Assembly: GCA_003281065.1 (NCBI GenBank)
Contig: QCDA01000002.1
Location: 41,862-105,861, forward strand
DNA: 64,000 nucleotides
Direction of reading: 5' to 3'
Source: Pelagibacteraceae bacterium AG-349-E10
GTDB lineage: Bacteria > Pseudomonadota > Alphaproteobacteria > HIMB59
In this document: one piece after another, positions 2,920-51,567 of the stretch
How positions within the stretch are numbered: position 1 is the stretch's first letter
Layout of the letters: each line of letters starts with the position of its first letter
Program-made: the position numbers and the translations under genes
Notes under the pieces: generated by a model
What the model saw: the letters and a program-made list of their open reading frames with translations, nothing else
The model's database searches: none
Told to the model about the DNA's origin: nothing

Positions 2920-3792
2920 ATGAAATCATTGATAAAAAGACTTTTAAAAATACCACTAGCATTAGTATTCTCTTACATTAGGGTTTTAAAACATTTTAGT
3001 TTTAGATCTCACTATTATTTAATTGATACTCTTACAAATTACACAAAAGAAAAAAAATTTTTAATTCAACACAAAGGTAAAAATTTTTATATATTTACTC
3101 CAAATCAATTATGTGAATTTCGAGCATCTACTTTTTTTTCAAAAGAACCTGAGACAATAAACTGGATTGAAAAATATGGCAAAGACATGGTTTTGTACGA
3201 TATAGGTGCTAATATAGGTCTATATTCGATTTATCACTCATTAATAAATCGTAGTAAAAGTTACGCTTTTGAGCCATCTGTTTTTAATTTAATGCAAATA
3301 ACAAAAAATATAAATATAAACGGATGTAATCAATTAATATCATTAATATCTAACCCATTATCTAATGTAAATTCACTTGAGGAATTTAATTATACTTCAA
3401 ATATTGAGGGAGGTGCTTTATCATCTTTTGGAGTAAACTTTAATTATGAAGGTAAATTAATTGACAAAAAACTTAGTATAAAAAAATTAGGCTTTTCACT
3501 TGATGAGCTTGTCTTTGGAGGTTACATAAAAGATAAGCCTAATCTTATAAAAATAGATGTTGATGGAATTGAACATTTAATTCTTCAGGGTGCCAGAAGA
3601 ACTTTAGAAAGTAAAAATTGTACTTCTGTGTTGGTTGAGATTAATGATACTTTTAAAGAGCAACACGATCTTTCAACAAACATTTTAAAAGAATGTGGTT
3701 TTGAGCTAGAGGAAAAAGAAAGATCTATATATGCTAAAGAAAATAAAGGCTTTGAAGATACGTATAATCAAATTTGGCACAAAAATTATTAA
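2920..3792 (+). CDS. FkbM-family methyltransferase
   Basis: 290 aa; VLYDIGANIGLYSIYHS...YAFEPS...LIKIDVDGIEHLILQGA. Confidence 0.85.
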   Translation: MKSLIKRLLKIPLALVFSYIRVLKHFSFRSHYYLIDTLTNYTKEKKFLIQHKGKNFYIFTPNQLCEFRASTFFSKEPETINWIEKYGKDMVLYDIGANIGLYSIYHSLINRSKSYAFEPSVFNLMQITKNININGCNQLISLISNPLSNVNSLEEFNYTSNIEGGALSSFGVNFNYEGKLIDKKLSIKKLGFSLDELVFGGYIKDKPNLIKIDVDGIEHLILQGARRTLESKNCTSVLVEINDTFKEQHDLSTNILKECGFELEEKERSIYAKENKGFEDTYNQIWHKNY

Positions 3793-4598
3793 CCATGAAA
3801 AATATCAAAATAGGTTTGATATTTTTTTAAAACCATTGGTCTAAATAAAATCATATTAGATTTAATTTCTACATAACTTTTTTTTGAGTCTCCTAGATGT
3901 AAAATTTTTGTATTTTTAGGCTTAGTAATTTCGTGAATATGATCTAACTTTACCCAATTTTTATCATATAGATTAACAGTTGTTCGAAGATCTTTGTCTA
4001 AAGGATTATTAAAGATTAATGATGACTCATTACAGTCATCAAATCTAACCTGGGGTATATATGAGTTTGTTTTTAGTAGAGTTGATGAGAGAAGAGGGAA
4101 AATTTTCATATCGGCAGAAAAAGATAATGAACTGTTATTACCATGTACATAGCTCCAAGGTCCATTATCATAATTATATCCTACATATCCTTTTTCGGTA
4201 ACAAATGAACCGTGATCTTTAAGCTCTTTATAATTTTTAAAACTATGGAATATAGCCACTGATCCAAAATTATTTGGACAGTATTTTGAAACTAAAAAAC
4301 TATAGGATTGAAAATATTTTAAATTGATTTCATTTTTAAAAATAATATTTCCATTTGAGTCAAAAAAAATAAAAATAACATTACAATCTTGATGAATCTT
4401 TGGCAATACCTGTGATGCTAAATTTGTAATATTTATTTTTGTGTCAAATTTATTTTGTGTATTCCAAAAAAAAAAATCACTAATAGATATTATATTTTTT
4501 TTTAAGTAAGAGTATCCCAAAGGTCGTAAATTTAAATTATTTCTTAAAAAGAGGAGAATATCTTTAGAAATTAGATGCTTAATTAATTTTTTCATCAA
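3789..4598 (-). CDS. Hypothetical beta-rich protein, possible paralog of the neighbouring 259 aa ORF
   Basis: 269 aa ORF in the co-oriented array, 20 nt overlap with the upstream gene; no family recognised. Confidence 0.6.
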   Translation of the reverse strand: MMKKLIKHLISKDILLFLRNNLNLRPLGYSYLKKNIISISDFFFWNTQNKFDTKINITNLASQVLPKIHQDCNVIFIFFDSNGNIIFKNEINLKYFQSYSFLVSKYCPNNFGSVAIFHSFKNYKELKDHGSFVTEKGYVGYNYDNGPWSYVHGNNSSLSFSADMKIFPLLSSTLLKTNSYIPQVRFDDCNESSLIFNNPLDKDLRTTVNLYDKNWVKLDHIHEITKPKNTKILHLGDSKKSYVEIKSNMILFRPMVLKKYQTYFDIFHG

Positions 4599-5358
4599 GC
4601 CAATGTTTTTTCTTTAGTTTTTGAAAATGACTTCTATCTCCAGAAAAAATATACTCAAGAGGAGGATGGGTATGCTCAATACCCATTCTTTTTTTGTCAG
4701 GAGATTTTGTAAAATATAAAGGAACTCCTCCAAATTTATCTGATTTAAAAACATAAAAATTATCAGTAAATTTATAATCAAGTTTATTTAAATCAAAAAT
4801 ATTAATAGTATTTGTAAAACATTGGAGCTGAGCTATTTTTTTAAATTCTGTGTTCATTACACTTACATAAAATTTTATTTTTTTTGGATTATCAGTTAAA
4901 TTGATCATATAAAAATATGTTTCAAAATCACTTTGTATCATAGGACTGCAGCTTACTAGGCTAATATTTTTTGATAAGATACTAGCTGGATATTCACCTT
5001 GATAGGAAGTAGATGTATAATTATTAAAGATTTTTGTATTTGATCTCCACTGAGGAGATGAATTCATGTAATTTTGATTTTCAAGACTTTTATTGAATTC
5101 ATTAGTTTTGAATGAAAACGATACAAAAACTGACTCATTCCTTGTTTCTTTTGGTAGATCATTTTTTTTTATAATACGCGATTCATTTTTTTTGATCTTA
5201 TCTAGCTCAAAATATATCCATTCTTCTCCATTAGAATAAAAAGCGTAAGGATAAATATCTTTAAGTACATCTTTGCAAAATTTTGAATTTGGAGGAAAAT
5301 TAAAAATATCTATTGAAGAACTTGAGTCGTAATGGTCTAAAAAAAAATAAATATTCAT
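4579..5358 (-). CDS. Hypothetical beta-rich protein, possible paralog of the neighbouring 269 aa ORF
   Basis: 259 aa ORF in the co-oriented array; C-terminal GIEHTHPPLEYIFSGD; no family recognised. Confidence 0.6.
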   Translation of the reverse strand: MNIYFFLDHYDSSSSIDIFNFPPNSKFCKDVLKDIYPYAFYSNGEEWIYFELDKIKKNESRIIKKNDLPKETRNESVFVSFSFKTNEFNKSLENQNYMNSSPQWRSNTKIFNNYTSTSYQGEYPASILSKNISLVSCSPMIQSDFETYFYMINLTDNPKKIKFYVSVMNTEFKKIAQLQCFTNTINIFDLNKLDYKFTDNFYVFKSDKFGGVPLYFTKSPDKKRMGIEHTHPPLEYIFSGDRSHFQKLKKKHWLDEKIN

Positions 5359-5361
5359 AAA

Positions 5362-6312
5362 CTATTTATATATTAATATTTTAATAATTTTTTTTATTAT
5401 TTTAAATATATCTAAAAAAGGAAGAAATATAAGCTTTAAAATTTTATTTTTTCTTAAAATCTTTTTTGTGTCATTATAATTATTAATAATTCGATTTTCA
5501 GAATTATATGGTTCAATAACTGCATGAATTTTACTATTTATATATTTTATTTTAAAACCTTTTAAATTAATAAGATTCATAAATGTTTTTTTTGTAAAAT
5601 GTGTAACATGTGCTATGTGTAAAAAGTTTTTAATTTCATAGTGATAATGTTCAGATATACTTTCGAGCGAGGGGACTTCTATATAAATAATACCTTTATC
5701 ATTTAGTAAATTTTTACATTTTGCTAAAACATCATCTACTGAAACTAAGTGCTCAAGGACATGCGAAAGAATAATTAAGTCAAATTTTCTGTTAATTTTT
5801 TTATAATTTGAAAATGTTGTTATATTTTTTTTCTTAGCATAATCTAAATGATCATTTTGGTAGTCAAGTCCATATACTTCATAGTTCTTAGTTTGAAAAA
5901 ATGAGAGTATACCCCCTGAACCACAACCAATTTCAAGGACTGAGTTTTTAATATTATTTTTTAAATATTTTTTAATAATATCATATTTATATTGTGCTGA
6001 TTTAAATCTACTATTAAATCTATCTTCCGGGCTTTTAAAGAATGAATATAGATCATTATAATATTTTTCATAAAACATATTCACAAAATCATTATTTGGG
6101 TATTTGTATTGTTGCATGAGTCCACAATCTTTACAAATACCAGTAAAATATTTAATACCATATCTATCTGTATTAGATATATGTTGGTAATTGTAACTAT
6201 TACAAATAATACAATTTCTATCGATAAGATTATTTTCTTGAGATAATAAATTATTTAATTTACTTGAAATTTTTAGTTGTTTTGAATTAAAAAGATATTG
6301 TTTTCTGATCAA
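5362..6312 (-). CDS. Class I SAM-dependent methyltransferase with N-terminal Cys4 zinc-binding segment
   Basis: CIICNSYN...CKDCGLMQ; VLEIGCGSGGILSFF; LSHVLEHLVSVDDVL. Confidence 0.85.
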   Translation of the reverse strand: MIRKQYLFNSKQLKISSKLNNLLSQENNLIDRNCIICNSYNYQHISNTDRYGIKYFTGICKDCGLMQQYKYPNNDFVNMFYEKYYNDLYSFFKSPEDRFNSRFKSAQYKYDIIKKYLKNNIKNSVLEIGCGSGGILSFFQTKNYEVYGLDYQNDHLDYAKKKNITTFSNYKKINRKFDLIILSHVLEHLVSVDDVLAKCKNLLNDKGIIYIEVPSLESISEHYHYEIKNFLHIAHVTHFTKKTFMNLINLKGFKIKYINSKIHAVIEPYNSENRIINNYNDTKKILRKNKILKLIFLPFLDIFKIIKKIIKILIYK

Positions 6313-6333
6313 TTAATTTACCTTTATAATGTT

Positions 6334-7284
6334 TTATTCATAACCATATTTGTATAATCTTCTAAAACTAACAAAATTATCTAAACCTCTTATAGCAGTA
6401 AGACCCATGTTGATAATTGACTCATTTGTTGAACCACCTATATGTGGGGTGCAATAAAAATTTTCTAGCTTTAACAACTTGTTGTTCATAGGAGGTTCAT
6501 TTTGAAAGACATCAAAAGCAGCATTTGCAATTTTATTAATTTTTAAAAATTTATAAATAGCATCTTCATTTATAATCCCACCACGTGAGCAATTAATAAA
6601 TAAAATATTTTTTTTACAATATTTTAAATTATCTTCATTAATAAGACTTATTGTTTTTTTTGTCAAAGGTGTGTGTATACTTACAATATCCGAATTTTTT
6701 AAAAGTTCATTTATTGAACATTGAATATGATTAGAATTATTAATTTTAATTTTTCTTATATCATTAATATAAATTTTACATTTCAATGGAGTTAATAATT
6801 TAAGTAAATCAGATCCGATAGAACCACACCCAATTATTCCTATTTTTTTATTAGTAATCTCCTCTGATGGTATTTGTTTAAATATATTATTCTGTTTTAA
6901 AGATTTTTGATAAGAGTATAGGTTTCTAGATATAGAAAAAATATAACCCATGACTAATTCTGAAACAGCTCTTGAATTTTGTCCTTTTTCCCAACCTAGT
7001 TTTACTTTAAATTTTTCTAAATCTTTTAAATTGATCATATCTAGACCTACACCGTACTTGCTTATGACTTTAAGCTTAGGCAAATTTACTAACACATTTT
7101 TATCAATTTTATCAAGTGCAACTATAATTTTATTACAATCAATAGCTGAAGATATAAGCTCACTATTTTTGAGTTTTCTTCCTGTTTCATTAAAAATACT
7201 ATTAGGGTAAATTGATAATAGTTTTTTTCTTAAAAATTTATTTTGAGAAAAAGATCTAGAAGTTACAAATACCTTATCTTTCAT
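6334..7284 (-). CDS. D-isomer-specific 2-hydroxyacid dehydrogenase (phosphoglycerate dehydrogenase-like)
   Basis: IGIIGCGSIGSDLLKLL; CKKNILFINCSRGGIINEDAIYKFL; AAFDVFQNEPP; PHIGGSTNES. Confidence 0.88.
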   Translation of the reverse strand: MKDKVFVTSRSFSQNKFLRKKLLSIYPNSIFNETGRKLKNSELISSAIDCNKIIVALDKIDKNVLVNLPKLKVISKYGVGLDMINLKDLEKFKVKLGWEKGQNSRAVSELVMGYIFSISRNLYSYQKSLKQNNIFKQIPSEEITNKKIGIIGCGSIGSDLLKLLTPLKCKIYINDIRKIKINNSNHIQCSINELLKNSDIVSIHTPLTKKTISLINEDNLKYCKKNILFINCSRGGIINEDAIYKFLKINKIANAAFDVFQNEPPMNNKLLKLENFYCTPHIGGSTNESIINMGLTAIRGLDNFVSFRRLYKYGYE

Positions 7285-7286
7285 AT

Positions 7287-8267
7287 TTAATAAACTTTAT
7301 TAATTAGTTTCATTAGGTTTAATGCGTCTATTGAATTTCCGTGATTAATATTTTTGTTTTTCAAAATTGAGTCAAAAAAATGATTTACCTCAATTTCCCA
7401 TGAATTATCAACCTTGAATAATAAATTTTTTTCTTTTGTCCAATTAGCTTCAGGTGGATTTGATCTATTAAGTGCATAAGTTAGATTCTCTTTACCATAA
7501 GAATTCGTTGAAGTTTTTAATCCATTTAATGTCATATATCCTTTTTCTAAAAATATTTCTAATGAAAATAAATGCCTCCACTGTGTCATTGTTGAGTGTA
7601 ATGAGCATAAAATATTTTTTTTAGAGTTTTTTAAGTTTATAAAAACATTATCTTCAATATCTTTATTCCAATAAGAACTTGATTTCATGGATTGTATAAC
7701 ATCGAAATTACCACAAAAATAATTTAAAAGATCAAGCATGTGAATACCTTGGTCTATCAAAATACCACCACCAGATATAGTTTTATCAGATCTCCAATTA
7801 TTAAAAAAGTCTTTGGAAACGCTTTTACCATACCTACCCCTGGCCCAAAGAATTTTTCCATATTCTTCAGAGTCTATTTTATGTTTCATTAATATAATGC
7901 TTTTATGATGTCTGTGATTAAAACCATACATTAACTTTTTTTTATATTTTTTTTCATACCTTATTACTTTTTTCATTTCCTTTAAATTTATCGTAGGAGG
8001 TTTTTCACAAAAAACGTTTTTTTTGTATTTTAAACCTAAACATGTGTAAAAGGAATTTAGGTTATTAGGTGTACAAACAAAAATACTATTAATTTTTTTA
8101 TCTAAAAAAATATCATTATAATTTTCACAAGATAATTTTTGGGGAATTTTTTGATATGGATCGTAAATCTTATAAATATTTATATTTTTAATTTTTTTTA
8201 GAACTTTATGTCTTAACTTACCGATTTTACCATAACCAATAATTGCAACGTTAATTTTATTTTTCAT
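7287..8267 (-). CDS. Gfo/Idh/MocA-family oxidoreductase
   Basis: VAIIGYGKIGKLRHKVLKK; FCEKPPT; GGILIDQGIHMLDLLNYF. Confidence 0.9.
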   Translation of the reverse strand: MKNKINVAIIGYGKIGKLRHKVLKKIKNINIYKIYDPYQKIPQKLSCENYNDIFLDKKINSIFVCTPNNLNSFYTCLGLKYKKNVFCEKPPTINLKEMKKVIRYEKKYKKKLMYGFNHRHHKSIILMKHKIDSEEYGKILWARGRYGKSVSKDFFNNWRSDKTISGGGILIDQGIHMLDLLNYFCGNFDVIQSMKSSSYWNKDIEDNVFINLKNSKKNILCSLHSTMTQWRHLFSLEIFLEKGYMTLNGLKTSTNSYGKENLTYALNRSNPPEANWTKEKNLLFKVDNSWEIEVNHFFDSILKNKNINHGNSIDALNLMKLINKVY

Positions 8268-8271
8268 TATC

Positions 8272-9309
8272 TTAATTATATTTCAAATTAAATTTCTTAA
8301 AATCTAATAAGTATTTTAAAAGTAAACTATCTTTTTCAAATTTCTTTATAAATGGTTTGCCAATATTTTTTATGAGAATTAATCTAATCTTATTATTGAT
8401 TGTTTTTTTATCTTTTTTTAATATTTTAATCATTTCCAATTCATTATATTTTTTTAAATTATAATTTTTTGAAATTAATTTAAGAGGTTTCTGTAGAGTA
8501 AAAAGCTGGTCTAAAGACAAAAAGCCTAGCCTGAATGAAATATAATTAGCAATTTGTAAACCAAAGCATACAGCTATACCATGAGGTATTTTAAAATTAG
8601 ATATAGCCTCAATGGCATGCCCGAAAGAATGGCCATAATTTAAATAAATTCTGATATTTTTCTCCAATTCATCTTTTTCAATAAAGGTTTGTTTAATTTT
8701 CAGAGATTTTTTTATCATTTTATCTAATTCTATATTTTTTTTATCAAAGTAACTGTGAATATTTTTAGTGAAAAAATTAAATTTATTTTTATCAGATAAA
8801 TAATAGTAATGAGCCATTTCTCCAAGGCCAGATAATAAATCTTTTTCTTTTAATGATTTTAGAAAGTTTTGATTAATATATATTTTTTGTGGTGGATAAT
8901 ATCCACCTAAAATATTTTTTACACCTTTGAAATTTATAGATATTTTACTTCCAATACAGCTGTCTGATTGGGCTAAAAGAGTAGTTGGTATAAAAATCCA
9001 ACTTATTCCCCTAAATAATATGTGTGCTATAAAAGAAGTTATATCCTGTAAAGTACCTCCTCCAATGCAGACTATAATTGAGTTTTTATCAATATTTTTT
9101 TTTAATAATTTATTTATGATAGTTGAAACATGAATATAGCTTTTGGCTTTTTCAGAAGCCTTTATATAGATAGTATTAGTTTCTTTGAGTTTAATATTTT
9201 TTTTTTTAAAAAAGCTATCAACTAAATAAAAATATTTCTGTTTCTTATTTTCATTAAAATAATTTTTAAATTCAACAGTATAATTTCCAAATTTTGATTT
9301 AATTATCAT
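8272..9309 (-). CDS. 3-dehydroquinate synthase-like sugar-phosphate cyclase family protein
   Basis: VCIGGGTLQDITSFIAHILFRGISWIFIPTTLLAQSDSCIGSKISINFKGVKNILGGYYPP; LNYGHSFGHAIEA; IPHGIAVCFGLQ (AroB-family motifs). Confidence 0.85.
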   Translation of the reverse strand: MIIKSKFGNYTVEFKNYFNENKKQKYFYLVDSFFKKKNIKLKETNTIYIKASEKAKSYIHVSTIINKLLKKNIDKNSIIVCIGGGTLQDITSFIAHILFRGISWIFIPTTLLAQSDSCIGSKISINFKGVKNILGGYYPPQKIYINQNFLKSLKEKDLLSGLGEMAHYYYLSDKNKFNFFTKNIHSYFDKKNIELDKMIKKSLKIKQTFIEKDELEKNIRIYLNYGHSFGHAIEAISNFKIPHGIAVCFGLQIANYISFRLGFLSLDQLFTLQKPLKLISKNYNLKKYNELEMIKILKKDKKTINNKIRLILIKNIGKPFIKKFEKDSLLLKYLLDFKKFNLKYN

Positions 9310-10037
9310 TATATAATTGTATATCCCCCATCTACGACTATATTTTGACCTGTAATATACGTATTGAGATCACTAGATAGAAAAATTACAACTGAGCCAA
9401 TTTCATTTGTTTTTGCAAGGCGTTTAAGTGGAATTTTATTTTTTATAACATTTATTTCTTTACCCAAGTTTCTCTTTGTCAATTCTGTATAAACGATACC
9501 AGGTGAAATACTATTTACTAAAATATTGTACTTGCCAAGTTCGGCTGCTAGTGTTCTTGTCAGTCCATTTAATCCTGATTTAGAGGATGCGTATGAAGAT
9601 CTTTTTGGTTTGGATACTATACTCCAAATTGATGAAATATTAATTATCTTTCCCTTATTTTGTTTGATCATTTTTGTTGATATTGACTGAGAGAGTTTAT
9701 AAGGAATTTTTAAATTATTTTCTAAAATGAAATCAAATTCTGAGTGTCTGATATTTTTTAAGTTATTTATTTTATTTATACCCATATTGTTTATGAGAAT
9801 ATCTATATGTTTAAATTTATTAACTTTATCGAAAAAATTATCTACAGAAGTATCTGATAAAGTGTCAAATTGAATAAAATCATATAATTTACTAGGTAGT
9901 TTATAATTTTGACTAGTTTTAGTTCCTGTAATTATTACTTTAGAACCATGTTCAATAAATTGATCACAAATATTTTTTCCGATACCTCTAGTTCCCCCAG
10001 TTAAAAGAACAAATTTATTTTTAAGATTTAATTTCAT
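9309..10037 (-). CDS. Short-chain dehydrogenase/reductase
   Basis: LLTGGTRGIGKNIC; NNMGINK; YASSKSGLNGLTRTLA; NSISPGIVYTE. Confidence 0.9.
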   Translation of the reverse strand: MKLNLKNKFVLLTGGTRGIGKNICDQFIEHGSKVIITGTKTSQNYKLPSKLYDFIQFDTLSDTSVDNFFDKVNKFKHIDILINNMGINKINNLKNIRHSEFDFILENNLKIPYKLSQSISTKMIKQNKGKIINISSIWSIVSKPKRSSYASSKSGLNGLTRTLAAELGKYNILVNSISPGIVYTELTKRNLGKEINVIKNKIPLKRLAKTNEIGSVVIFLSSDLNTYITGQNIVVDGGYTII

Positions 10038-11232
10038 TCATAGATTTGGAAAAAATTTTTTTAAATAAAGATATTTCTTTTAAACTAGTATTTAAACGAG
10101 GTCTTAATCTTACAGTGTTAAATCTAGTGGGATTAACTAACATACCATTTTCAAAAAGTTTTTTTACTAATAAATCTCTAAATTTAGGGCTATCTAAATC
10201 AAATGCAATTAAATATCCTGAACTTCGTACATTCTTCAAAATTTTAAATTTTCTAAGATAATTAGATATATCTTTAGAGTATTTTTTTATTTGTCTTGTT
10301 AAATTATTTCTTTCTAAGTAATTTATTATTAAATTAGACCTATACATATCAATAAGATCTGAATTCCATGTTACGTTTAATAAAAACTCATCATTAAAAA
10401 TTTCAGAAAATTTTTTTTTAACCATAATTCCTGAAACTTGACTTTTTTTTCCAAATATTACGATATCAGGACTTACACCAATTTGTTGAAAATACCATTT
10501 TTTTCCTGAAGTATAAAATCCTGTCTGTATCTCATCAAAAATCAAAGGTATATTTTTTTTATTACAAATATTTTGAATGTCTTTTAAAAAATTTTCATCT
10601 AAATATCTGTCTCCAAATGTAGATTGTATTGGCTCTACCAAAACAGCACTTGATTTATCTTCTTTTATTTTTTTTTTTAAAAAAGTAATTATTTCTTGAT
10701 ATTTACTTTTTTCAAATTTTGCTGGTTGTTTTACTGCATTTGTTACATCGATATGATCTATATATGCTCCAGGAAAATATTGAAGTCTTGGGTAGACACT
10801 ATCAAATCTATCAGTAAATACTCCCCCATAGCCGTTTATGCCATGAAAATTTCCTTTTAAAACAATAATATTTTTACTCTTATATTTTGAATAATAAATA
10901 GATGTTTTTATTGCAGCTTCAACTGCAAGTGCACCAGTTGAACAAAAATGAAAACTTTTATATATTCCCAATCCTAGAAATTTTTTAAAGTTTTTTTTAA
11001 AATCTCTTAAAATTTCTGAGTCTAATTCGCAATTTACAATCTTTTGAGGGAAAATTTTGAGTAAATTTTTTTGTATTGATTTTTTTTTAAAAATATCTGA
11101 GTTATAACCTAGAGTAAGGGTTGAATATTGTCCAAAAAAATCAAGGTACTTTTTATTTGTCCTTTTATCATATAGTAGACCTCCTTTGCTTTTATTAAAG
11201 TCAATATGAATATTAAAAATTGTATTTTTCAA
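10021..11232 (-). CDS. Class III PLP aminotransferase, L-lysine 6-aminotransferase-like
   Basis: LIFDEIQTGFYTSGKKWYFQQIGVSPDIVIFGKKSQVSGIM...VTWNSDLIDMYRS...NTVRLRPRL; FGKKxQVxGI and TVRxRPxL recall the LAT family. Confidence 0.75.
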   Translation of the reverse strand: MKNTIFNIHIDFNKSKGGLLYDKRTNKKYLDFFGQYSTLTLGYNSDIFKKKSIQKNLLKIFPQKIVNCELDSEILRDFKKNFKKFLGLGIYKSFHFCSTGALAVEAAIKTSIYYSKYKSKNIIVLKGNFHGINGYGGVFTDRFDSVYPRLQYFPGAYIDHIDVTNAVKQPAKFEKSKYQEIITFLKKKIKEDKSSAVLVEPIQSTFGDRYLDENFLKDIQNICNKKNIPLIFDEIQTGFYTSGKKWYFQQIGVSPDIVIFGKKSQVSGIMVKKKFSEIFNDEFLLNVTWNSDLIDMYRSNLIINYLERNNLTRQIKKYSKDISNYLRKFKILKNVRSSGYLIAFDLDSPKFRDLLVKKLFENGMLVNPTRFNTVRLRPRLNTSLKEISLFKKIFSKSMNEIKS

Positions 11233-11244
11233 AACAAATATAAA

Positions 11245-12369
11245 TTAGAAATCTTTCTGAGTGTATATATGTGCAACATCAGATCTACTTACAGCCAATC
11301 GTATAGATAAATTTTTACTCATAGCTGTAATCTTGTGCTTTTTATATCTTTCAATAAAAACAACATCACCTTTCTTAATTAATATGTCTCTATCTTCAAT
11401 AGTCCACTTCCATTTTCCTTCAATAATATACCACCACTCATCCCAGTTTGGATGAAAATGCATTCTATTACCCTCTCCTTTTAATTGAGCAATGAGAGTT
11501 GCTGAATTAGATTTAGAGTTGATCAGTCTATATGACCATGATTTATCTTTTGGTTGATTTTTTATAATATCATTAATTGATATTTTTTCTTTATTAAAAA
11601 CATCTAAAATATTATCTAATACACCGTCATCTTTTAGAATTTTACTTACATTTGACTGACTTATTAATTTTTTTTGTTTGATTGAGCTGTTTGTTTCTTT
11701 TTTTAAGTCTTTTAATATTGCTTCAGCAATTTGAAAGTCTTCTTCGTAATCAATATCAAAGGACTCGATTTCTGAAATATCAAAAAAGTTTGTTTTACCA
11801 CTTGGTCCATGATATGCACATTGAAATTTTTTCATATTAGTAATAAATTTTTTAGATTTCCAGCCCATGATACAACAAGCATATGCTTTTATCGGTTCTA
11901 AATCTTGCGAGGGGGGTGTTTTCTTTTTAGAATTAAAGTTAATTGGTTTTTTTTTATAAATACATTCTATTCTGACATCTTTTGTAGAAATCAAAGTATC
12001 TAGATTATTATCAATCATATGTTCAATAAACCTATTTACAGTTTTACTTTTTAGAAAAGGTCCAGTCGGTAAGAGTTGAATGAGGAGGTCACATTCTATA
12101 TTGTTCAAAAAATCTAAGCTAAAATCATCATTAAGAGCTTTGTTTGAAGCTAAAGATTTTTTTCTTTTATAAAATAATATATTTTCCTTATTTGCAATTT
12201 TTTCAAATTTTTTAGACTCTGAATTAATATAAATTTGATTAAAATATTTAACAGATTTAGCTGTATCAATTATATGATTAATTAGTGGTTTATTCCCTAG
12301 AAATCTCAAATTTTTATTTTTTACTCTTTGACTTCCTAGTCTAGCAGGTATCATACAAACGATTTTCAT
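11245..12369 (-). CDS. Acylneuraminate-type cytidylyltransferase domain fused to a C-terminal cupin domain
   Basis: N-term MIPARLGSQRVKNKNLRFLGNKPLINHIID; C-term GNRMHFHPNWDEWWYIIEGKWKWTIEDRDILIKKGDVVFIERYKKHKI cupin. Confidence 0.85.
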   Translation of the reverse strand: MKIVCMIPARLGSQRVKNKNLRFLGNKPLINHIIDTAKSVKYFNQIYINSESKKFEKIANKENILFYKRKKSLASNKALNDDFSLDFLNNIECDLLIQLLPTGPFLKSKTVNRFIEHMIDNNLDTLISTKDVRIECIYKKKPINFNSKKKTPPSQDLEPIKAYACCIMGWKSKKFITNMKKFQCAYHGPSGKTNFFDISEIESFDIDYEEDFQIAEAILKDLKKETNSSIKQKKLISQSNVSKILKDDGVLDNILDVFNKEKISINDIIKNQPKDKSWSYRLINSKSNSATLIAQLKGEGNRMHFHPNWDEWWYIIEGKWKWTIEDRDILIKKGDVVFIERYKKHKITAMSKNLSIRLAVSRSDVAHIYTQKDF

Positions 12370-12420: not shown

Positions 12421-13962
12421 TTATTTTTTTAACGTAGTGAGTATATTGTTAAGATGTAAATTTAATTCATCTTTACCATTTATTAATTTTAAGTTTTGCC
12501 TCGCCCTATCATCTTTATCAATCATAATTTCAGGGTCGTAAAAGAAATTATAATTAGTTTTTGTTTCAAAAAAACCAGCTGTTGTAAAAGGTGCAGATAT
12601 TGAAAAAAGGCTCTTTTTTGCCAATAACTTTGGAGAATATCTAGGATTTAACAGCGTTATTTTATTTAAATTAAGTTTTTTAATATAGTTATAATAATCC
12701 ATCGGGTAGTTTCTAGAATTTAATGAATGTTTTGATTTTAATATAATTTGAAAGTCTTTATCTTTAAAATAATTGATGATGTCATCAAGAAATTTTATAC
12801 AAATACTAGATATTCGATATCTATCCTCAGGTAACATTAGAGCTCTGCTAAAAATATGATGTGGTACCACATCAAAAATACATATATTTTTCATTTTACT
12901 ATCTATGCTTATTCCTTGCTCTGAATGAAATGGTGATACTTTATCTTCTAAGAAAATTACTGTAGGTATAATTTTTTTAATATGTTCATAAAATATCTTA
13001 CTATCAACATAATAATTATCCCATAAATTTAAATGATGATACATGGTATCTGTTGGATAAAAACCATCTTTACTCTTAAATCCATAATAACCAGATGCAT
13101 GATTGATTAAATGAAATTTAAAATTATGATTCTGAGCTAGATATGACCAAAACGGTCTTAAAAGTTGATCATGAAAAGTAAAAATAACATGGTTAATTTT
13201 AGCATCATTTTTTATAGTCGATAATTTATAAGCATGAATATAATTTTCCTGATCAAGGAGATACAGTTTTTGCCATTTATTTATAACAAAATATAAAAGT
13301 GATATCAAAAATTTATATAAAAAGTTAATTAATAGAAAAAATTTCATTTTCATGTTTAAGGCATTTATTGGATAACCAAATTCATATTTAACGTTATCAA
13401 TTTTAAATTTTTCTAAACTTTTGTTATTATGAAAAATATTATTGGGTGTTATACCTAAACACTTAATAGAACTTAAAATAAATGAGTAATCTTGATTATC
13501 ATGTTGATTACTTGGTATCAAAAATTTTTCAGAAACCTTGGGAAAAAAAATATTTGTAGATCTTTTATCAAATTCAATTTGTTTCAAATTTAAAATATGA
13601 AAAATTGAAGAAAAATTTTTTTTCAAAGAGATATAAAGTATGTACGGGTAAAAAAGTAAAAAAGATAAAAAAACTGAACAATTTATATTTTGTTTCTTTA
13701 GAAAAATTGCGTGTTTAAATGGTAAAGGAAAAATAATAGGAAGCCCAATACTATAAAAAAAAATATATAATTTTGAGAAGTGTGGCATTATAAGAAAATT
13801 ATAAAATAAGCCTTGTAAAGTTTTATTGATTAGCTTGTCTTTATGTAAAGGCAAGGATAATAGCTCTTTTTCGGTGATTTTGAGATTTCTCAATTCTGAT
13901 AAGCTCAGAGCATTATATTTATTTACTATTTTTTTTCTAAAAAAGTTTTTTATAAGACTCAT
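12421..13962 (-). CDS. Putative surface-carbohydrate biosynthesis/glycosyltransferase-like protein
   Basis: 513 aa; FHDQLLRPFWSYLAQNHNFKFHLINHASGYYGFKSKDGF...ILKSKHSLNSRNYP...SISAPFTTAGFFE; GT-B-like layout, family uncertain. Confidence 0.45.
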   Translation of the reverse strand: MSLIKNFFRKKIVNKYNALSLSELRNLKITEKELLSLPLHKDKLINKTLQGLFYNFLIMPHFSKLYIFFYSIGLPIIFPLPFKHAIFLKKQNINCSVFLSFLLFYPYILYISLKKNFSSIFHILNLKQIEFDKRSTNIFFPKVSEKFLIPSNQHDNQDYSFILSSIKCLGITPNNIFHNNKSLEKFKIDNVKYEFGYPINALNMKMKFFLLINFLYKFLISLLYFVINKWQKLYLLDQENYIHAYKLSTIKNDAKINHVIFTFHDQLLRPFWSYLAQNHNFKFHLINHASGYYGFKSKDGFYPTDTMYHHLNLWDNYYVDSKIFYEHIKKIIPTVIFLEDKVSPFHSEQGISIDSKMKNICIFDVVPHHIFSRALMLPEDRYRISSICIKFLDDIINYFKDKDFQIILKSKHSLNSRNYPMDYYNYIKKLNLNKITLLNPRYSPKLLAKKSLFSISAPFTTAGFFETKTNYNFFYDPEIMIDKDDRARQNLKLINGKDELNLHLNNILTTLKK

Positions 13963-17621: not shown

Positions 17622-17630
17622 TTTAACTTG

Positions 17631-18434
17631 TTAAATTATTGAAATACCGCCATCTACAATTAGATTGGACCCAGTTATATATGAAGATTTTGGTGAACAT
17701 AAAAATATAATTGATTTTGATATTTCGCTTGGATAGCCAAGTCTGCTTAATGGTGTTTTCTTTTCATACCTTTTAATAAAAGATCTAGTTTGATTATTAG
17801 ATACGCCAGCATTATGACCGTATAAACCCCCTGGGCTTAAGCAATTCACTCTTATGTTGAATTTGCCGTAGTAAGCACTCATTTGTTTGACTAAATTTAT
17901 TATGCCACCTTTAATAATTGAATAAGTCATATTTTCTCTCATTTGAGTATTTTCATAAAGATTTAAGTCTTGACCAAGAAAACCATAAATAGAACCTAAA
18001 AGTAAGATATTACCTTTAATTTTTTTTTCATACATAAAATTAGCTGTTTCTTTAGCAATCCATGAGTAACTTAAAAGATTTAGCTCAATATTTTTTTTTA
18101 ATGAGCTGTACTCAATATTTGAGAAATTATTCTCAGACCATTTGTTGTCTCTTGGATAAGAACAATTTACTAAAGAATATGGAAAACCATTTTTATCGAA
18201 AATATCAATTATGTTAAATTTTTCATTCTCAATATTTTCACAATCAAAATGTATAAATTTAAAATTTTTGCTATTACATAATCTTGAATTAGGTTTAATT
18301 ACGTCTAGTGAAATAACTTTTGCTCCTAAAATTAGTAAATCTTCAACTAGTTCTTTTCCTATCAACCCTGATCCACCTAATATATAAAAAATTTTATTTT
18401 TTAATTGAAAAAAATTTTTTGTTTTATTTTTCAT
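17631..18434 (-). CDS. SDR oxidoreductase (PtmA-like by context)
   Basis: YILGGSGLIGKELVEDL; YSIIKGGIINLVKQM; VNCLSPGGLYG; next to a neuA/ptmB-type gene. Confidence 0.85.
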   Translation of the reverse strand: MKNKTKNFFQLKNKIFYILGGSGLIGKELVEDLLILGAKVISLDVIKPNSRLCNSKNFKFIHFDCENIENEKFNIIDIFDKNGFPYSLVNCSYPRDNKWSENNFSNIEYSSLKKNIELNLLSYSWIAKETANFMYEKKIKGNILLLGSIYGFLGQDLNLYENTQMRENMTYSIIKGGIINLVKQMSAYYGKFNIRVNCLSPGGLYGHNAGVSNNQTRSFIKRYEKKTPLSRLGYPSEISKSIIFLCSPKSSYITGSNLIVDGGISII

Positions 18435-19117
18435 TTTTTATAAAATAAATTTACAAGTTTCCAATCTGTTTCAGTGTCAATATCGATGGATCTTTCAAAT
18501 GGCATTTTATATAAGTATGTTTTTTTTCTAAAAAAAGAATTATTAGAAAACAAAATATTTCTTTTCCAAATATAAATTGATGCGTTCATTTCGTATACTT
18601 TTGGTGCTTGCTGTCTAGAGTTGTATTTCTTATTTGAATTTATAACTCTTTTAACTATACCATCTTTTATTTGCACCATATTAAAATATGGATTTTTTCT
18701 TGCATCACAAATAGTCAATAGATTGTCACTCTTAGACTCAAGAAAATAATCAAAACTTTTTTTTATATCTAATATCTTTCTTAATGGTGATGTTACATCT
18801 AAATCAATTATATATTCAAATTTTTTGTCAAAAAATTTTTCCGACTCTAAACAAACATCTCTGATAACATCAATTTTTGGAGCATTATCTGAGGAAAGTT
18901 TTTTATTTCTTAAGGATAATGAAATTGCTCCACTGTTTTGAGCAATACTTTTAATCCTATTTGAGTCAGTGCTTACTACTATTTGATCAAAAATCTTTGA
19001 TTTTAATGCTTGTTTAATTGTAATACTTATTAAAGGTTCACCTTTAAGTAACTTTATATTTTTATTTTTCAAACCTTTAGAATTAGCTCTAGCACAAATA
19101 GTACATAAAACACTCAT
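18431..19117 (-). CDS. neuA: Acylneuraminate (nonulosonate) cytidylyltransferase; start trimmed to MSVLCTICARANSKGLKNKNIK
   Basis: ICARANSKGLKNKNIKLL; DLDVTSPLRKILDI; NASIYIWKR; track ORF starts at 19159 but the internal ATG gives a 4-nt overlap with the upstream gene. Confidence 0.85.
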   Translation of the reverse strand: MSVLCTICARANSKGLKNKNIKLLKGEPLISITIKQALKSKIFDQIVVSTDSNRIKSIAQNSGAISLSLRNKKLSSDNAPKIDVIRDVCLESEKFFDKKFEYIIDLDVTSPLRKILDIKKSFDYFLESKSDNLLTICDARKNPYFNMVQIKDGIVKRVINSNKKYNSRQQAPKVYEMNASIYIWKRNILFSNNSFFRKKTYLYKMPFERSIDIDTETDWKLVNLFYKK

Positions 19118-20025
19118 TTGGTAATATTTATATATTGCATAGCATCTTTTATGGTACAAAGATTATCATAGTTCTTACTTAAAATTGCTTCATGTTGTTT
19201 TTTATATGAAAAATTTCTTTCGTAGTTTTTAAGGTTTTTAGATATATTTTTGTTTGATTTAACAAATTTTACTAATAATTTATTATTTATTAAGTCTAAA
19301 TGGATGGATTTTTTATCAAAATCAATAATCATTTTTCTGTAAGAAATTTTTGAGTAATAATTTAATGTTATATTTAATATGACTTTTTTATTTATCTTAC
19401 CTATTAGGGTCAAATGATCATTACTAGATATCTTGAGTGATGAAATTTTCTTATTAATTATTTGAGTAGTTTTAAAACCTCCAAAGAGCCAATATACATA
19501 ATCAAACTCATGACTTAAATCATTTTCTACTCCTCCACCTCTATTTTTATGAGCGCTATAGCTTTTAAAATACTTTTGATTGTCTCTCCATTTTGGTAAG
19601 AAAGATCCTGAATATATATTTATACTTAATAAGTTATCTTTTCTTTTATTTATAAAGTTTTTTAAGTATGAAAGAAGTGGGTGAAATCTTAAGTTATATC
19701 CAACAAATATTTTATTATTAATGTTTTTTAAATTCAAAGAACTAGAGTGAAATATTGGTTTTTCAATTAATATAATTTTATTTTTAAAAAGAATATTAAT
19801 TTTTTTTAAATATTTATAATGTGTTGATGTCTCAGATGAAACGATAATGTAATCTGGATTATAGTCAATTAATTTTGATTTTTTAAAATCTAACTTAAAT
19901 TTTGAAGGTACTTTCAACCTTGTAACAATTTTGATCTCTTTAATTTTTTTAAATTTAGATAATATGCTGTGGTGTCGCCTACCTATAGATCCATATCCAA
20001 TTATTAATACTTTGATATTAATCAA
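19114..20025 (-). CDS. Gfo/Idh/MocA-family oxidoreductase (PtmF-like by context)
   Basis: VLIIGYGSIGRRHHSIL; IEKPIFH; GGGVENDLSHEFDYVYWLFG. Confidence 0.85.
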   Translation of the reverse strand: MINIKVLIIGYGSIGRRHHSILSKFKKIKEIKIVTRLKVPSKFKLDFKKSKLIDYNPDYIIVSSETSTHYKYLKKINILFKNKIILIEKPIFHSSSLNLKNINNKIFVGYNLRFHPLLSYLKNFINKRKDNLLSINIYSGSFLPKWRDNQKYFKSYSAHKNRGGGVENDLSHEFDYVYWLFGGFKTTQIINKKISSLKISSNDHLTLIGKINKKVILNITLNYYSKISYRKMIIDFDKKSIHLDLINNKLLVKFVKSNKNISKNLKNYERNFSYKKQHEAILSKNYDNLCTIKDAMQYINITK

Positions 20026-21094
20026 GTTTAATTATTTTGTTAAACGTATCTAGTTCAGATGTTTTACCTATTTCTACCCAATTATTGTTAGATATATGGT
20101 GGGTATGTATTTTCTTTTTCATTTTTTTTGCTCTCATAATTAAATCTGTTGCATCAAAAAATTTATTTTTAGGAATAAGTTTAATAATATCTTTTTTTAT
20201 AATATAGAAACCAACATTAATTACGAAATCAAATATTGGTTTTTCTATAATTTCAATAAATTCAGATTTATTTTTAGTTTTGATTTGACCATATGGAAAT
20301 TCAAGTTTTTTGTTTGTAACAAGAAGGGTGATATCAGAATTATTTTTAATGTGTTTCTCAACTATTTTGTAAATATTTTCTGAGATAATTGTATCACAAT
20401 TAGTTATAATTATATTTTCTGAAAGTTTCTTAACATCTATATTTCTAATTGCACCAATAGTTCCTAAAGGCTTAGTTTCATTTATAAACGTTAGTTTAGA
20501 GTTATTCAGATCTTCAAATTTTTTTTTCAAAACATCCTTTAAAATTTTTTTTTGATAAAAAGCAGATATATAAAAGTTATTAAAACCTTGCATGTAATAC
20601 TTATCTAAAATTCTTATTATCATCGGAATACCTCCGATAGGCATTAAAGCTTTTGGATAAGTATTAGTGAATGGAGCTAATCTTTTACCTCTTCCACCAG
20701 CCATAATAATCATATCTATATTATGTGAATATGTGTCATCATTTAATGTAAAAAATTGATCCCAAGAAAATATGTCAACAATACTATTTTTTTTATTTAT
20801 TACAGGAATTAATTCAAATTTATTAATTTGTAATATTTTTTTAATTTCATTCTTATCAACCTCATTTTCGTAAACTTTAATTGGATCTGGATTATAAATA
20901 TTTTTGATTGATCTTTCTAAATTAGGGTCTTTTAAAATAGATTTTCTTATATCACCATCTGTTATAGTTCCTAAAAGTTTTTTTTTTACATTTGTAACCA
21001 TAAGACATTTATGCGGTGATACATTTAAGTATGATAAGGCAGTTTTAATTGTTGCATTACTGAAGATAAAATATTTCTTATTTAAATTTTTCAT
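20018..21094 (-). CDS. CBS-domain plus nucleotidyltransferase fusion (PtmE-like)
   Basis: N-term LGTITDGDIRKSIL CBS; IDMIIMAGGRGKRLAPFTNTYPKALMPIGGIPMI nucleotidyltransferase. Confidence 0.88.
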   Translation of the reverse strand: MKNLNKKYFIFSNATIKTALSYLNVSPHKCLMVTNVKKKLLGTITDGDIRKSILKDPNLERSIKNIYNPDPIKVYENEVDKNEIKKILQINKFELIPVINKKNSIVDIFSWDQFFTLNDDTYSHNIDMIIMAGGRGKRLAPFTNTYPKALMPIGGIPMIIRILDKYYMQGFNNFYISAFYQKKILKDVLKKKFEDLNNSKLTFINETKPLGTIGAIRNIDVKKLSENIIITNCDTIISENIYKIVEKHIKNNSDITLLVTNKKLEFPYGQIKTKNKSEFIEIIEKPIFDFVINVGFYIIKKDIIKLIPKNKFFDATDLIMRAKKMKKKIHTHHISNNNWVEIGKTSELDTFNKIIKLD

Positions 21095-21123
21095 TGTTCT
21101 TACAGCTTTTTAATGAACCATGT

Positions 21124-22251
21124 CTAAAGATCATTGAAAGATTTAACATAAGTCTCAGATTTTAAAAGTTTTTTTAATTTCTTAATTATCAAATCGGAGG
21201 GATCATTTTTATATAAATTTTTAACGGGTATTAATTTAGATTTATCTTCGTAAATTTTTTTAATACTTTTGATTATTTTTTTTGAGTTTGGTGGGCAATT
21301 AATGATAGAATTATGCATTATTCTACCATTTTGTCTTGAGCCTATATTTATTGTAGGCTTTCCAAATAAAGGCACCTCAGTTACACCACTTGATGAATTA
21401 CCTAAAACACAATCTGAAATTTTGATCAATGAATAGTAAAATTCTTGACCAAAAGATTTAACAAATATTGCATTATTATTAAATAATATGAATTTTTTTA
21501 TTTTTTTTAAAATTATATCATTTCCTTTATCCATATTTGGTGAAGTAAATACATATTGAATATTTTTAAAATGATTTAAGGCTTTAAGCACCTCGTTAAA
21601 CTCTTCTGCTTTATAATTCTTAACTAATGTCATTGGATGATAAGTAATTAAAATTATTTTATTTATTAGTTTTATATTTAATTTTTTTTCGATTTGAAGC
21701 CTATTAAGAAGCTTAGTTTTTTTTAAATTTTCACTCGCTAAATTGCCTGTAATAAAAACCCTTTTTTTTTCCTCACCTAATTGTAGTACTCTCTTGTAAT
21801 ACTCTTTATTTGAGACAAAATGGTAATATGAGAGTTTAGTTATTGCATGCCTAAAACAATCATCTTTTGAACCAGTAGTAACTTCACCACCGCTAATGTG
21901 AGCTATTGGTATATTACATATAAAAGCTGCAGCCACTACTAAAAAAGTTTCTACCCTGTCACCTAGCACTAAAATAGACTTAGGTTTTATTTTATTTAAA
22001 ACTTTATTTATGTTATTTAAAAATTTTGAATTTAGTAAATTTTTTGAGTCTAGATTATTTGGAAAACTGATTAAATTATATTTAAACTTATCTTTTTGAA
22101 TTTCAGAAATAGTATTTCCATATTTATCTTTATTATGAGACCCAGATACAATTAACTTTAATTTAATTTTTTTTTCTCTTCTTAACTTTATTAAAACTGG
22201 TTTTAATAGTCCGTAATCTGCTCGACTAGAGGAAAAAACACATATATTCAT
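21124..22251 (-). CDS. neuC: UDP-GlcNAc 2-epimerase (hydrolysing), NeuC/LegG family
   Basis: SSSRADYGLLKPVL; VLGDRVETFLVVAAA; HISGGEVTTGSKDDCFRHAITKLSYYHFVS; GNSSSGVTEVPLFG. Confidence 0.92.
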   Translation of the reverse strand: MNICVFSSSRADYGLLKPVLIKLRREKKIKLKLIVSGSHNKDKYGNTISEIQKDKFKYNLISFPNNLDSKNLLNSKFLNNINKVLNKIKPKSILVLGDRVETFLVVAAAFICNIPIAHISGGEVTTGSKDDCFRHAITKLSYYHFVSNKEYYKRVLQLGEEKKRVFITGNLASENLKKTKLLNRLQIEKKLNIKLINKIILITYHPMTLVKNYKAEEFNEVLKALNHFKNIQYVFTSPNMDKGNDIILKKIKKFILFNNNAIFVKSFGQEFYYSLIKISDCVLGNSSSGVTEVPLFGKPTINIGSRQNGRIMHNSIINCPPNSKKIIKSIKKIYEDKSKLIPVKNLYKNDPSDLIIKKLKKLLKSETYVKSFNDL

Positions 22252-22252
22252 A

Positions 22253-23242
22253 TTATTTTATTCTCTCATTTTGTTTATAATTTCTTTTAGCTTTTTTCCC
22301 AAGGTAATTATCTATTTTCATTGGGGATACGCCATATCCAGGTCTTTTTATACATAAATTATCGTTTGTGAAAATTTCTCCCCTCTTAATTGATTTTTTT
22401 GTAAATATAGATTTTCTTACTACATTTTTAATTAGCATTTCAGATTTTGTAAGTTTTTTATTAAAAGAACCTTTAGCTTTTTCAATATTTCTAATTAATG
22501 ATATCATCTTCTCAAAATCCTTAATATTCATACTAGCTTTATGATCCGGACCGCTCATATTTCTATTAAATGTAATATGTTTTTCTATGCACTCAGCACC
22601 TAAAGAAACTGCAGCTATTGGAACCTCAAATCCATTTGTGTGATCAGAATATCCAATTCGTAAATTATATTTTTTCTTAAAAGTAGAAATGACATTTAAA
22701 TTAACCTCATTAAAATTCGTTGGATAACTTGAAGTACAATGCATTAAAATAATGTTTTTTTTATTTAATAACTTTAGAGCATCATCAATTTCTTTATGAT
22801 TTGACATACCTGTTGAAAGAATAAGTGTTTTTTTCGATTTGGATAAGATTTTCAAATAAGGCTTATTTGTAATCTCTCCAGATGGAATTTTAATTTTTTC
22901 TATAGAAGAATTTTTAATAATAAAATTAAGACTCTCTTCATCGAATGCGCTAAACATGATTTCTATTTTCTTTTTTTTAGAATATTCAATTAATTTTTTA
23001 TATTCAGAAAGTGTTAGATGGAGACGTTTAATCATATCAAATTGTGTCTCTTTATCTTTACTATTTTTTTTTTGATATCTTGCCTTCTTTGTATTCTGAA
23101 TTATGACATTCTCAGGTATAGCAATTTGAAACTTAATAATATCGACATTAATTTTTTTACATGCGTCAATGTATTTTTTTGCCTCAATAAAATTACCATT
23201 GTGATTAACCCCAACTTCAGCAATAATTATAGTTTTGGTCAT
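22253..23242 (-). CDS. neuB: N-acetylneuraminate/legionaminate synthase family
   Basis: IIAEVGVNHNGNFIEAKKYIDAC; IKIPSGEITNKPYLK; HCTSSYPT; IGYSDHTNG; IEKHITFNRNMSGPDHKASM; C-terminal SAF-like region. Confidence 0.95.
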   Translation of the reverse strand: MTKTIIIAEVGVNHNGNFIEAKKYIDACKKINVDIIKFQIAIPENVIIQNTKKARYQKKNSKDKETQFDMIKRLHLTLSEYKKLIEYSKKKKIEIMFSAFDEESLNFIIKNSSIEKIKIPSGEITNKPYLKILSKSKKTLILSTGMSNHKEIDDALKLLNKKNIILMHCTSSYPTNFNEVNLNVISTFKKKYNLRIGYSDHTNGFEVPIAAVSLGAECIEKHITFNRNMSGPDHKASMNIKDFEKMISLIRNIEKAKGSFNKKLTKSEMLIKNVVRKSIFTKKSIKRGEIFTNDNLCIKRPGYGVSPMKIDNYLGKKAKRNYKQNERIK

Positions 23243-29620: not shown

Positions 29621-30190
29621 TTAACTTGCACTATATTCAATCTTTCCAATTATTAGATCACACACAAGTAGTAACCAGAACTGATGTGTATTTTCAATTA
29701 TATTGTAAGCCTTGCTATCAGTCCATAAAGACAAATTGCCAAGTTTTGATAATTTATTATTTTTATTGAAGCCAGTTAAAGTAACCAATTTATTTTTTTT
29801 TTTATTAACAAACTTAGCTGCATTAATTAAGTTTGGAGAATTACCGCTAGAACTAATTAAAATTACTAAATCATTTTTCTCAAGATGAATTTCAAGAGCT
29901 TTTTTAACCCAGTTTTCATATCCATAATCGTTAGCTAAACATGTTATAAAATCGTATTCATTGAAATTATAAGATTTAATACCCACGACCTTATTTAGAT
30001 CTACAGAAACATGGCTAGCAATAGCAGAGCTACCACCATTACCAACGATTATAACTTTTCCTTTGTTAAGTTTGGTTTTTAAAAAAAATTTTTTTAATTC
30101 AATTATTTTGGGGATGATATTCTTATCAAGAGATGATTTTTGAAATTTATCAAAATAAATGTCAATAAAATTGATGTCTTTCATGTTCAA
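29621..30190 (-). CDS. SIS-domain sugar isomerase (GmhA-like)
   Basis: VIIVGNGGSSAIASHVSVDLNK; LVILISSSGNSPNLINAA. Confidence 0.88.
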   Translation of the reverse strand: MNMKDINFIDIYFDKFQKSSLDKNIIPKIIELKKFFLKTKLNKGKVIIVGNGGSSAIASHVSVDLNKVVGIKSYNFNEYDFITCLANDYGYENWVKKALEIHLEKNDLVILISSSGNSPNLINAAKFVNKKKNKLVTLTGFNKNNKLSKLGNLSLWTDSKAYNIIENTHQFWLLLVCDLIIGKIEYSAS

Positions 30191-45368: not shown

Positions 45369-45376
45369 AAAAATTT

Positions 45377-46303: not shown

Positions 46304-46342
46304 AATAATTTATTATTAGTTCGCTAAACATATTAAAGATCA

Positions 46343-49908: not shown

Positions 49909-51567
<1,659 letters not shown>

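Follow-up and report, generated by a model that had tools for sequence, protein, structure and literature searches.

A predicted CMP-activated glycan precursor pathway built around a dehydroquinate-synthase-like enzyme in bacteria and T4-like phages

In the 3-dehydroquinate synthase (DHQS, AroB) of S. aureus, 11 residues form the pocket for 3-deoxy-D-arabino-heptulosonate 7-phosphate (DAHP), and Asn 268 is described as a participant in ring opening and aldol condensation (PMC6262012). A related family, TIGR04425, already bears the name AroB-related putative sugar phosphate phospholyase (cyclizing), without a known reaction. Here we analyzed a 64,000-nucleotide stretch (the window; contig QCDA01000002.1, positions 41,862 to 105,861) from Pelagibacteraceae bacterium AG-349-E10, in which an operon of seven minus-strand open reading frames (ORFs) at 5362..12369 includes an enzyme of the TIGR04425 clade. 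From the protein families, active-site residues and gene co-occurrence, we infer with a probability of roughly 0.55 that the operon makes a cytidine monophosphate (CMP)-activated acidic building block for O-antigen or capsule, by way of a carboxylated sugar phosphate and a DHQS-type step. Nothing on target turned up in the literature, whether for a pathway already described, for phage GT29 enzymes or for viral auxiliary genes of aroB type, and neither an operon joining the cytidylyltransferase-cupin fusion to an aminotransferase nor the phage cassettes described below were found described. A glycan precursor that is activated with CMP and not yet described was suggested in a first-pass annotation that had recognized no described pathway; the suggestion still holds, and the case for it has grown. 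The genes concerned are as follows.

11245..12369, minus strand: NeuA/PseF-like cytidylyltransferase fused to a metal-type cupin (CYT-cupin; PF02348 and PF07883 in one 374-aa ORF)
10021..11232, minus strand: class-III aminotransferase, like L-lysine 6-transaminase (LAT) (PF00202; best NCBIfam TIGR03251; pyridoxal-phosphate lysine motif FGKK)
9309..10037, minus strand: short-chain dehydrogenase/reductase (SDR), the steadiest partner of the cyclase (PF13561; YxxxK; homologue at most clade loci)
8272..9309, minus strand: DHQS-family cyclase of the TIGR04425 clade, predicted to eliminate phosphate (PF01761/PF24621; DAHP pocket whole but for Lys to His at residue 167)
7287..8267, minus strand: Gfo/Idh/MocA dehydrogenase (PF01408/PF22725; EKP motif; homologue at 13 bacterial clade loci)
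6334..7284, minus strand: D-2-hydroxyacid dehydrogenase (2HADH), PGDH-like (PF02826/PF00389; SRG and PHxG motifs; homologue at 10 of 13 bacterial loci)
5362..6312, minus strand: S-adenosylmethionine-dependent methyltransferase with an N-terminal CxxC...CxxC pair (PF13489)
29621..30190, minus strand: SIS-domain, GmhA-like isomerase, candidate counterpart of the isomerase that adjoins the cyclase elsewhere (PF13580/PF01380)
12421..13962, minus strand: polysaccharide protein with a PFTS motif, which may be the transferase acting on the product (TIGR04417, 57 bits; cut-off 100)

The seven tightly packed genes are present in the order and at the coordinates first proposed, with intergenic gaps of -17 to +21 bp, and Pfam and NCBIfam assignments matched the family guessed for each of them. 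The catalytic motifs listed for the SDR, aminotransferase, Gfo dehydrogenase and 2HADH are unbroken. By its TIGR03251 score of 227.5 bits, below the cut-off of 520.8, the aminotransferase is classed as LAT-like only and not as LAT proper.

Placement and substrate pocket of the cyclase

The best family match of the cyclase over the whole protein is TIGR04425 (359.6 bits, E 1.6e-107). Because this falls short of the cut-off of 400, which four other proteobacterial clade members pass, we file it by score as a divergent relative of the TIGR04425 clade rather than a certified member. It does share the clade traits, namely position in the tree, the motifs DSCIGSK and NYGHSFGHAIE, and a polysaccharide context. 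Against TIGR01357 (aroB) it scored 271 bits, below the equivalog cut-off of 305. In a 160-sequence tree, which supplied the phylogenetic placement called for in the first-pass annotation, the cyclase fell inside a 112-tip clade (support 0.95, inner node 0.94). The AroB proteins of E. coli, Lactococcus and the window's own order lay outside this clade, as did the DOIS, EEVS, DDGS and EboD references, whose labels are based on record annotation and gene context.

The tree, the glycan-gene context and the presence in one same-genus genome (G013) of both a plain aroB and a clade member (TIGR04425 328 bits, cut off where its contig stops) together lead us to reject an AroB identity. A divergent or phage-borne DHQS feeding the shikimate pathway is, on the same three grounds, barely credible, even though 10 of the 11 DAHP-pocket residues are identical, the nearest solved structures are AroB and the window's own assembly yielded no other aroB. 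The separate, bona fide aroB that was looked for is on record in G013, while family and protein searches found none in the window's own assembly (903 kb, 46 contigs, 68% complete). This absence is probably an assembly gap: the aroB of relatives lies in an aroK-aroB-CNNM operon, shikimate kinase (aroK) was likewise not found in this 68%-complete genome by family and protein searches, and its CNNM gene gave only a 32% partial match.

The pocket of the window cyclase consists of D116, K122, N132, E164, H167, K206, R220, N224, H227, H231 and K301, which are 10 of the 11 DAHP-pocket residues with H167 in place of Lys. In what we take to be A. nidulans numbering, these positions are D146, K152, N162, E194, K197, K250, R264, N268, H271, H275 and K356. 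Across 110 clade loci, 10 of the 11 are invariant, bar one alignment gap at K356 (truncated relatives beyond these loci add two more gaps there); at position K197, 71 loci have Lys and 39 have His. All the AroB, DOIS, EEVS, DDGS and EboD references used have Lys at this position. An AlphaFold2 model of the window cyclase (predicted local distance difference test 85.8, predicted template modeling score 0.86) had AroB structures as its best matches.

The first-pass annotation had drawn an analogy with the secondary-metabolite cyclitol cyclases DOIS and EEVS, which does not survive this comparison, since those enzymes lose DHQS substrate residues that the clade keeps. The DOIS, EEVS, DDGS and EboD references all alter R264 and N268, and most alter others too; the clade shows none of their typical substitutions at R264, N268, H275 or K250. 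Because the clade retains these residues, its substrate would be a carboxylated, DAHP-like ulosonate phosphate rather than sedoheptulose-7-phosphate or glucose-6-phosphate. An aminocyclitol product, as the first-pass annotation suggested, is at most a candidate, given that the aminotransferase is optional and that the CMP and GT29 chemistry points more to an ulosonic acid. A DOIS/EEVS-like cyclitol synthase acting on either of the latter two might be expected from the GmhA-like isomerase, which belongs to the sedoheptulose-7-phosphate isomerase family, and from the presence of an aminotransferase and a Gfo dehydrogenase. However, the clade retains R264, N268, K250, H275 and K356, and the tree sets it apart from all four reference groups, so we regard such a synthase as highly unlikely; a cyclase of DOIS/EEVS type was rejected on the pocket residues.

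Conserved neighborhoods in bacteria and phages

Clade loci were gathered by whole-genome searches and by scanning 84,980 species genomes and IMG/VR. At the thresholds used, the window's own genome was the only one of 385 with a clade member in a draw from its class, and 6 of 399 genomes, its own included, had one in a draw from its phylum, so the TIGR04425-type clade is rare in bacteria. The gene neighborhood, which the first-pass annotation proposed to look for in related genomes, is kept in other bacteria and in phages, and its conservation is far beyond chance. At 13 bacterial loci (L028, L030, L031, L033-L036, L038-L043) the cyclase stands with an SDR and a Gfo dehydrogenase in every case, with a SIS protein at 12 and with a 2HADH at 10; two of the three loci lacking the 2HADH stop at a contig edge. 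In a SAR86 single cell (L041) the six core genes of the window all occur side by side, and the CYT-cupin shows 55% identity over 99%; genome G662 (L030) also carries the fusion (43% identity over 99%). The methyltransferase, first proposed as a member of the operon, has no consistently kept homologue at clade loci and lies outside this core; it is probably a downstream tailoring enzyme. At two bacterial loci (L031 6708-9563, L028 2-1402), a FAD-linked protein resembling D-2-hydroxyglutarate dehydrogenase lies near the cassette, which hints at 2-hydroxyacid chemistry.

The clade loci fall into two cluster types. Type I contains SIS, SDR, cyclase and cytidylyltransferase (fused, unfused or KdsB-like) genes plus an aminotransferase or Gfo/2HADH, the aminotransferase being optional across the wider cyclase family. 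Type II contains a thiamine-pyrophosphate (TPP) enzyme, SDR, cyclase and a pyruvate/phosphoenolpyruvate-type aldolase or synthase (HpcH/HpaI-like, HMGL-like or NeuB-like), with no cytidylyltransferase. The K197H change marks type I. A SIS gene lies within seven genes at 38 of 38 His loci versus 6 of 67 Lys loci, or 32/32 versus 5/47 after dereplication at 70% identity (p = 3e-17, a value that overstates independence as the sequences are related). A NeuA- or KdsB-type, that is CMP-ulosonate-type, cytidylyltransferase is nearby at 36 of 40 His loci versus 10 of 71 Lys loci; two of the His loci without one (L114, L115) have the fusion just beyond the seven-gene limit and the other two stop at a contig edge.

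All three of the interchangeable type II aldolases yield 2-keto-3-deoxy or related 2-keto acids in known families, which agrees with the DAHP-like pocket of the cyclase. Type II cassettes with an acetolactate-synthase-like TPP enzyme, SDR, TIGR04425-like cyclase and HpcH/HpaI-like aldolase or NeuB-like synthase occur at L154, L164, L173, L190 and about 45 other viral loci, where dTDP-glucose dehydratase-like genes are also found. As speculation, the type II gene set might suit an inositol-fused sugar such as bradyrhizose, for which only a dehydratase cluster is known (PMC4743980).

The phage distribution is the unexpected part of the finding. The IMG/VR scan gave 80 clade loci, and the contigs reach 328 kb in length. 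Of 32 contigs tested for T4-type capsid protein (PF07068), 9 had it, and T4-type portal and T4-type terminase were each present on 7 of 29; contigs with T4 genes include carriers of window-type cassettes (L113, L114, L123, L135, L137, L140, L144), and the phage status of other contigs is IMG/VR's own classification. One large group of phage clade loci has precisely the window's CYT-cupin, class-III aminotransferase and SDR, along with GmhA-like and GT29 (sialyltransferase-like) genes. The window's cassette occurs in T4-like phages in a portable form. No clade cassette was found in sequenced isolate phages or plasmids: isolate phage records gave 15 matches to the cyclase at no more than 39% identity, and the CYT-cupin fusion had no match in phage records and no more than domain-level matches in plasmids. 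One human fecal phage record, unverified and unannotated (L202, MT835555.1), has a DHQS-family gene 38.7% identical over 56% of the window cyclase.

The CYT domain has a PF02348 fold with PAR..GS and DID..EDF motifs. Its best matches by sequence in the PDB are NeuA, also its nearest structure, and its best folds are CMP-Kdn and CMP-Neu5Ac synthetases; its scores lie below the PseF and KdsB equivalog cut-offs. It belongs to the CMP-ulosonate-synthetase family (NeuA/PseF/KdsB) and is predicted to use cytidine triphosphate and a 2-ulosonic acid. The cupin half retains H304, H306, E311 and H345, and the fusion is kept full-length at 41-55% identity in SAR86, another proteobacterium and phages. CMP activation, part of the original proposal, is strengthened because the catalytic half of the fusion is closest to CMP-sialate/Kdn synthetases, and GT29-like transferases accompany the phage versions.

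A reciprocal search seeded on CYT-cupin gave 53 full-length phage loci, with SIS at 52, aminotransferase at 48, SDR at 32 and cyclase at 31. Some of the 22 loci lacking the cyclase are short contig ends, so a few of these absences may be artifacts. GT29-like transferases lie beside CYT-cupin at 27 of 31 loci with and 18 of 22 without the cyclase, and PF00777 scored above cut-off in six of eight newly tested proteins and in L213. Such proteins (L213 7148-8002, L140 7206-8039 and about 80 more) stand beside the fusion in T4-like environmental phages. A protein of about 130 aa, presumably a HAD phosphatase-like enzyme given its DFDG motif though it has no Pfam match, occurs at 13 of 22 loci without the cyclase and at none of the 31 with it (8/16 versus 0/25 after dereplication, p = 1.3e-4; the profile was built from stand-alone HAD proteins, with HAD-SIS fusions left out). 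Since the two are mutually exclusive in phages, the cyclase probably removes phosphate inside the CMP-sugar pathway. On the CYT-cupin tree, parsimony requires 10 switches between having and lacking the cyclase. A further 26 viral loci (within L258-L284) have cupin-only or partial CYT-cupin matches and neither cyclase nor class-III aminotransferase; 25 have an SDR homologue and many a fused HAD-SIS protein, possibly a third variant of the pathway.

These counts also bear on whether adjoining mini-pathways make the cyclitol and the CMP-sugar separately, for example a cyclitol acid decorating a glycan that contains an ordinary CMP-sugar. The 22 phage loci with CYT-cupin and no cyclase would fit such a division, as would the clade members in TPP/aldolase clusters without any nearby cytidylyltransferase. 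However, cyclase and phosphatase exclude each other beside the same CYT-cupin, SIS and aminotransferase set, and K197H is linked both to SIS and to the cytidylyltransferase, which makes separate products distinctly unlikely.

Proposed pathway and the question of ring closure

In the pathway we propose, the GmhA-like isomerase, Gfo/Idh dehydrogenase and 2HADH would prepare a carboxylated, DAHP-like sugar phosphate of the 2-ulosonate type, one possible order being isomerization, oxidation at C1 and oxidation at C2. The TIGR04425-clade enzyme, which has the DHQS fold and active site, would then run the DHQS cycle of NAD oxidation, phosphate elimination, re-reduction and, most likely, closure of a carbon ring. 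The remaining ketone may be reduced by the SDR, transaminated by the class-III enzyme, or both. The NeuA-like half of CYT-cupin, by its family, would load the product with CMP, and a transferase, GT29-like in phages and perhaps the PFTS protein in the window, would set it on a surface glycan. If the ring does close, we tentatively raise the possibility, at well under even odds, that marine bacteria and T4-like phages share a route to a CMP-activated carbocyclic ulosonic-acid analogue, aminated in some cases. Such a "carba-ulosonate" would represent a new class among the nucleotide-activated building blocks of glycans, one in whose synthesis a DHQS-type enzyme replaces the phosphatase.

Several points weigh against this pathway. 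Minimal four-gene phage versions have no Gfo, 2HADH or aldolase as a source of the carboxylated substrate, and the phage loci without a cyclase mean that it and CYT-cupin are not obligate partners. In the window, the SIS gene and the cassette are about 17 kb apart, and a GT29 gene was looked for and not found. Finally, ring closure would put the CMP ester on a carbocycle, which should make a poor glycosyl donor for an enzyme of GT29 type.

CMP and GT29 chemistry suits an ulosonic acid with an anomeric center better than it suits a simple cyclitol. In a serious rival, if a rather unlikely one, the enzyme is a phospholyase without ring closure: the enol is protonated with no aldol step, giving a 7-deoxy-6-keto heptulosonate from which the SDR or aminotransferase makes a ulosonic acid of 7-deoxy (or 6-amino) type; this true sugar is then activated with CMP. 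Such a product would have the true anomeric center of a 2-ulosonic acid, and compounds of this kind are what NeuA-like enzymes and GT29 naturally use. CYT-cupin and GT29 proteins of the same lineages serve with and without the cyclase across the roughly 10 switches on the tree, which is easier if only the sugar tail differs, and the near-equal numbers of SDR and cyclase loci (32 and 31 of 53) also favor it. Conversely, Asn 268, tied to ring opening and aldol condensation (PMC6262012), is kept in all clade members. A preference for closure comes from general chemistry as well: an eliminated enolpyranose tends to cyclize spontaneously. To our knowledge, every characterized sugar-phosphate cyclase closes the ring.

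Surface-glycan island and comparison with known systems

The operon does not stand alone and belongs to a larger surface-glycan island. Its seven genes are part of a co-directional minus-strand run of surface-glycan genes from 656 to 30190, broken by a single plus-strand gene at 2920. Immediately downstream, at 3789-5358, are two adjoining ORFs of 269 and 259 aa that matched nothing in Pfam or NCBIfam. The SIS protein of the window is about 29-40% identical to cyclase-linked SIS proteins, and a second PFTS protein (100.4 bits) sits a few genes from a clade cyclase in locus L040. At 15002-23242 lies an operon of nonulosonic-acid type, with a PseA-like gene followed by HisH-/HisF-like, second SDR, NeuA, Gfo, PtmE-, NeuC- and NeuB-like genes, in an order partly kept in L027; by our reading, its NeuC, NeuB, PtmE and NeuA-like genes are those at 18431..23242. 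Two pairs of split transketolase/dehydrogenase-E1-like genes lie at 43619-47499 in the same island, which ends near a gene at 49909..51567 that we take to be groEL.

If the CMP-activated route is right, a sugar-phosphate-cyclase clade hitherto annotated as putative cyclizing phospholyase or AroB belongs to the CMP-sugar metabolism of surface glycans, and natural T4-like phages carry the whole cassette with their own sialyltransferase-like enzyme. Unknown acidic sugars on the surfaces of bacteria or phages, where phage and host recognize each other, would then have a concrete route of synthesis, with a chemistry accessible through four or five small soluble proteins.

Compared with described systems, the window cyclase resembles AroB in its fold, Zn/NAD site and 10 of 11 DAHP-binding residues, and differs in its separate clade, the Lys to His change and its glycan operon. 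It shares clade and motifs with TIGR04425, although its score stays below that family's cut-off and the family name specifies no reaction. EboD (PMC5133447) is likewise an uncharacterized sugar-phosphate cyclase that is annotated as AroB yet forms a distinct clade and sits in a conserved cluster; its clade is a different one, its pocket has R264S and N268D, and its partners differ. The EEVS/DOIS pathways to validamycin and aminoglycosides follow the same general plan of cyclase, oxidoreductase, aminotransferase and nucleotidyl activation, whereas in the window operon the substrate pocket differs, the nucleotide is probably CMP and the product would go to a surface glycan. The sialic and nonulosonic CMP-sugar pathways (NeuA, PseF, KdsB) use the same CMP-synthetase family and share the GT29 transferase family with the phages, but the cassette has no ulosonate synthase, and for phosphate removal a DHQS-type enzyme appears to stand in the place of the phosphatase.

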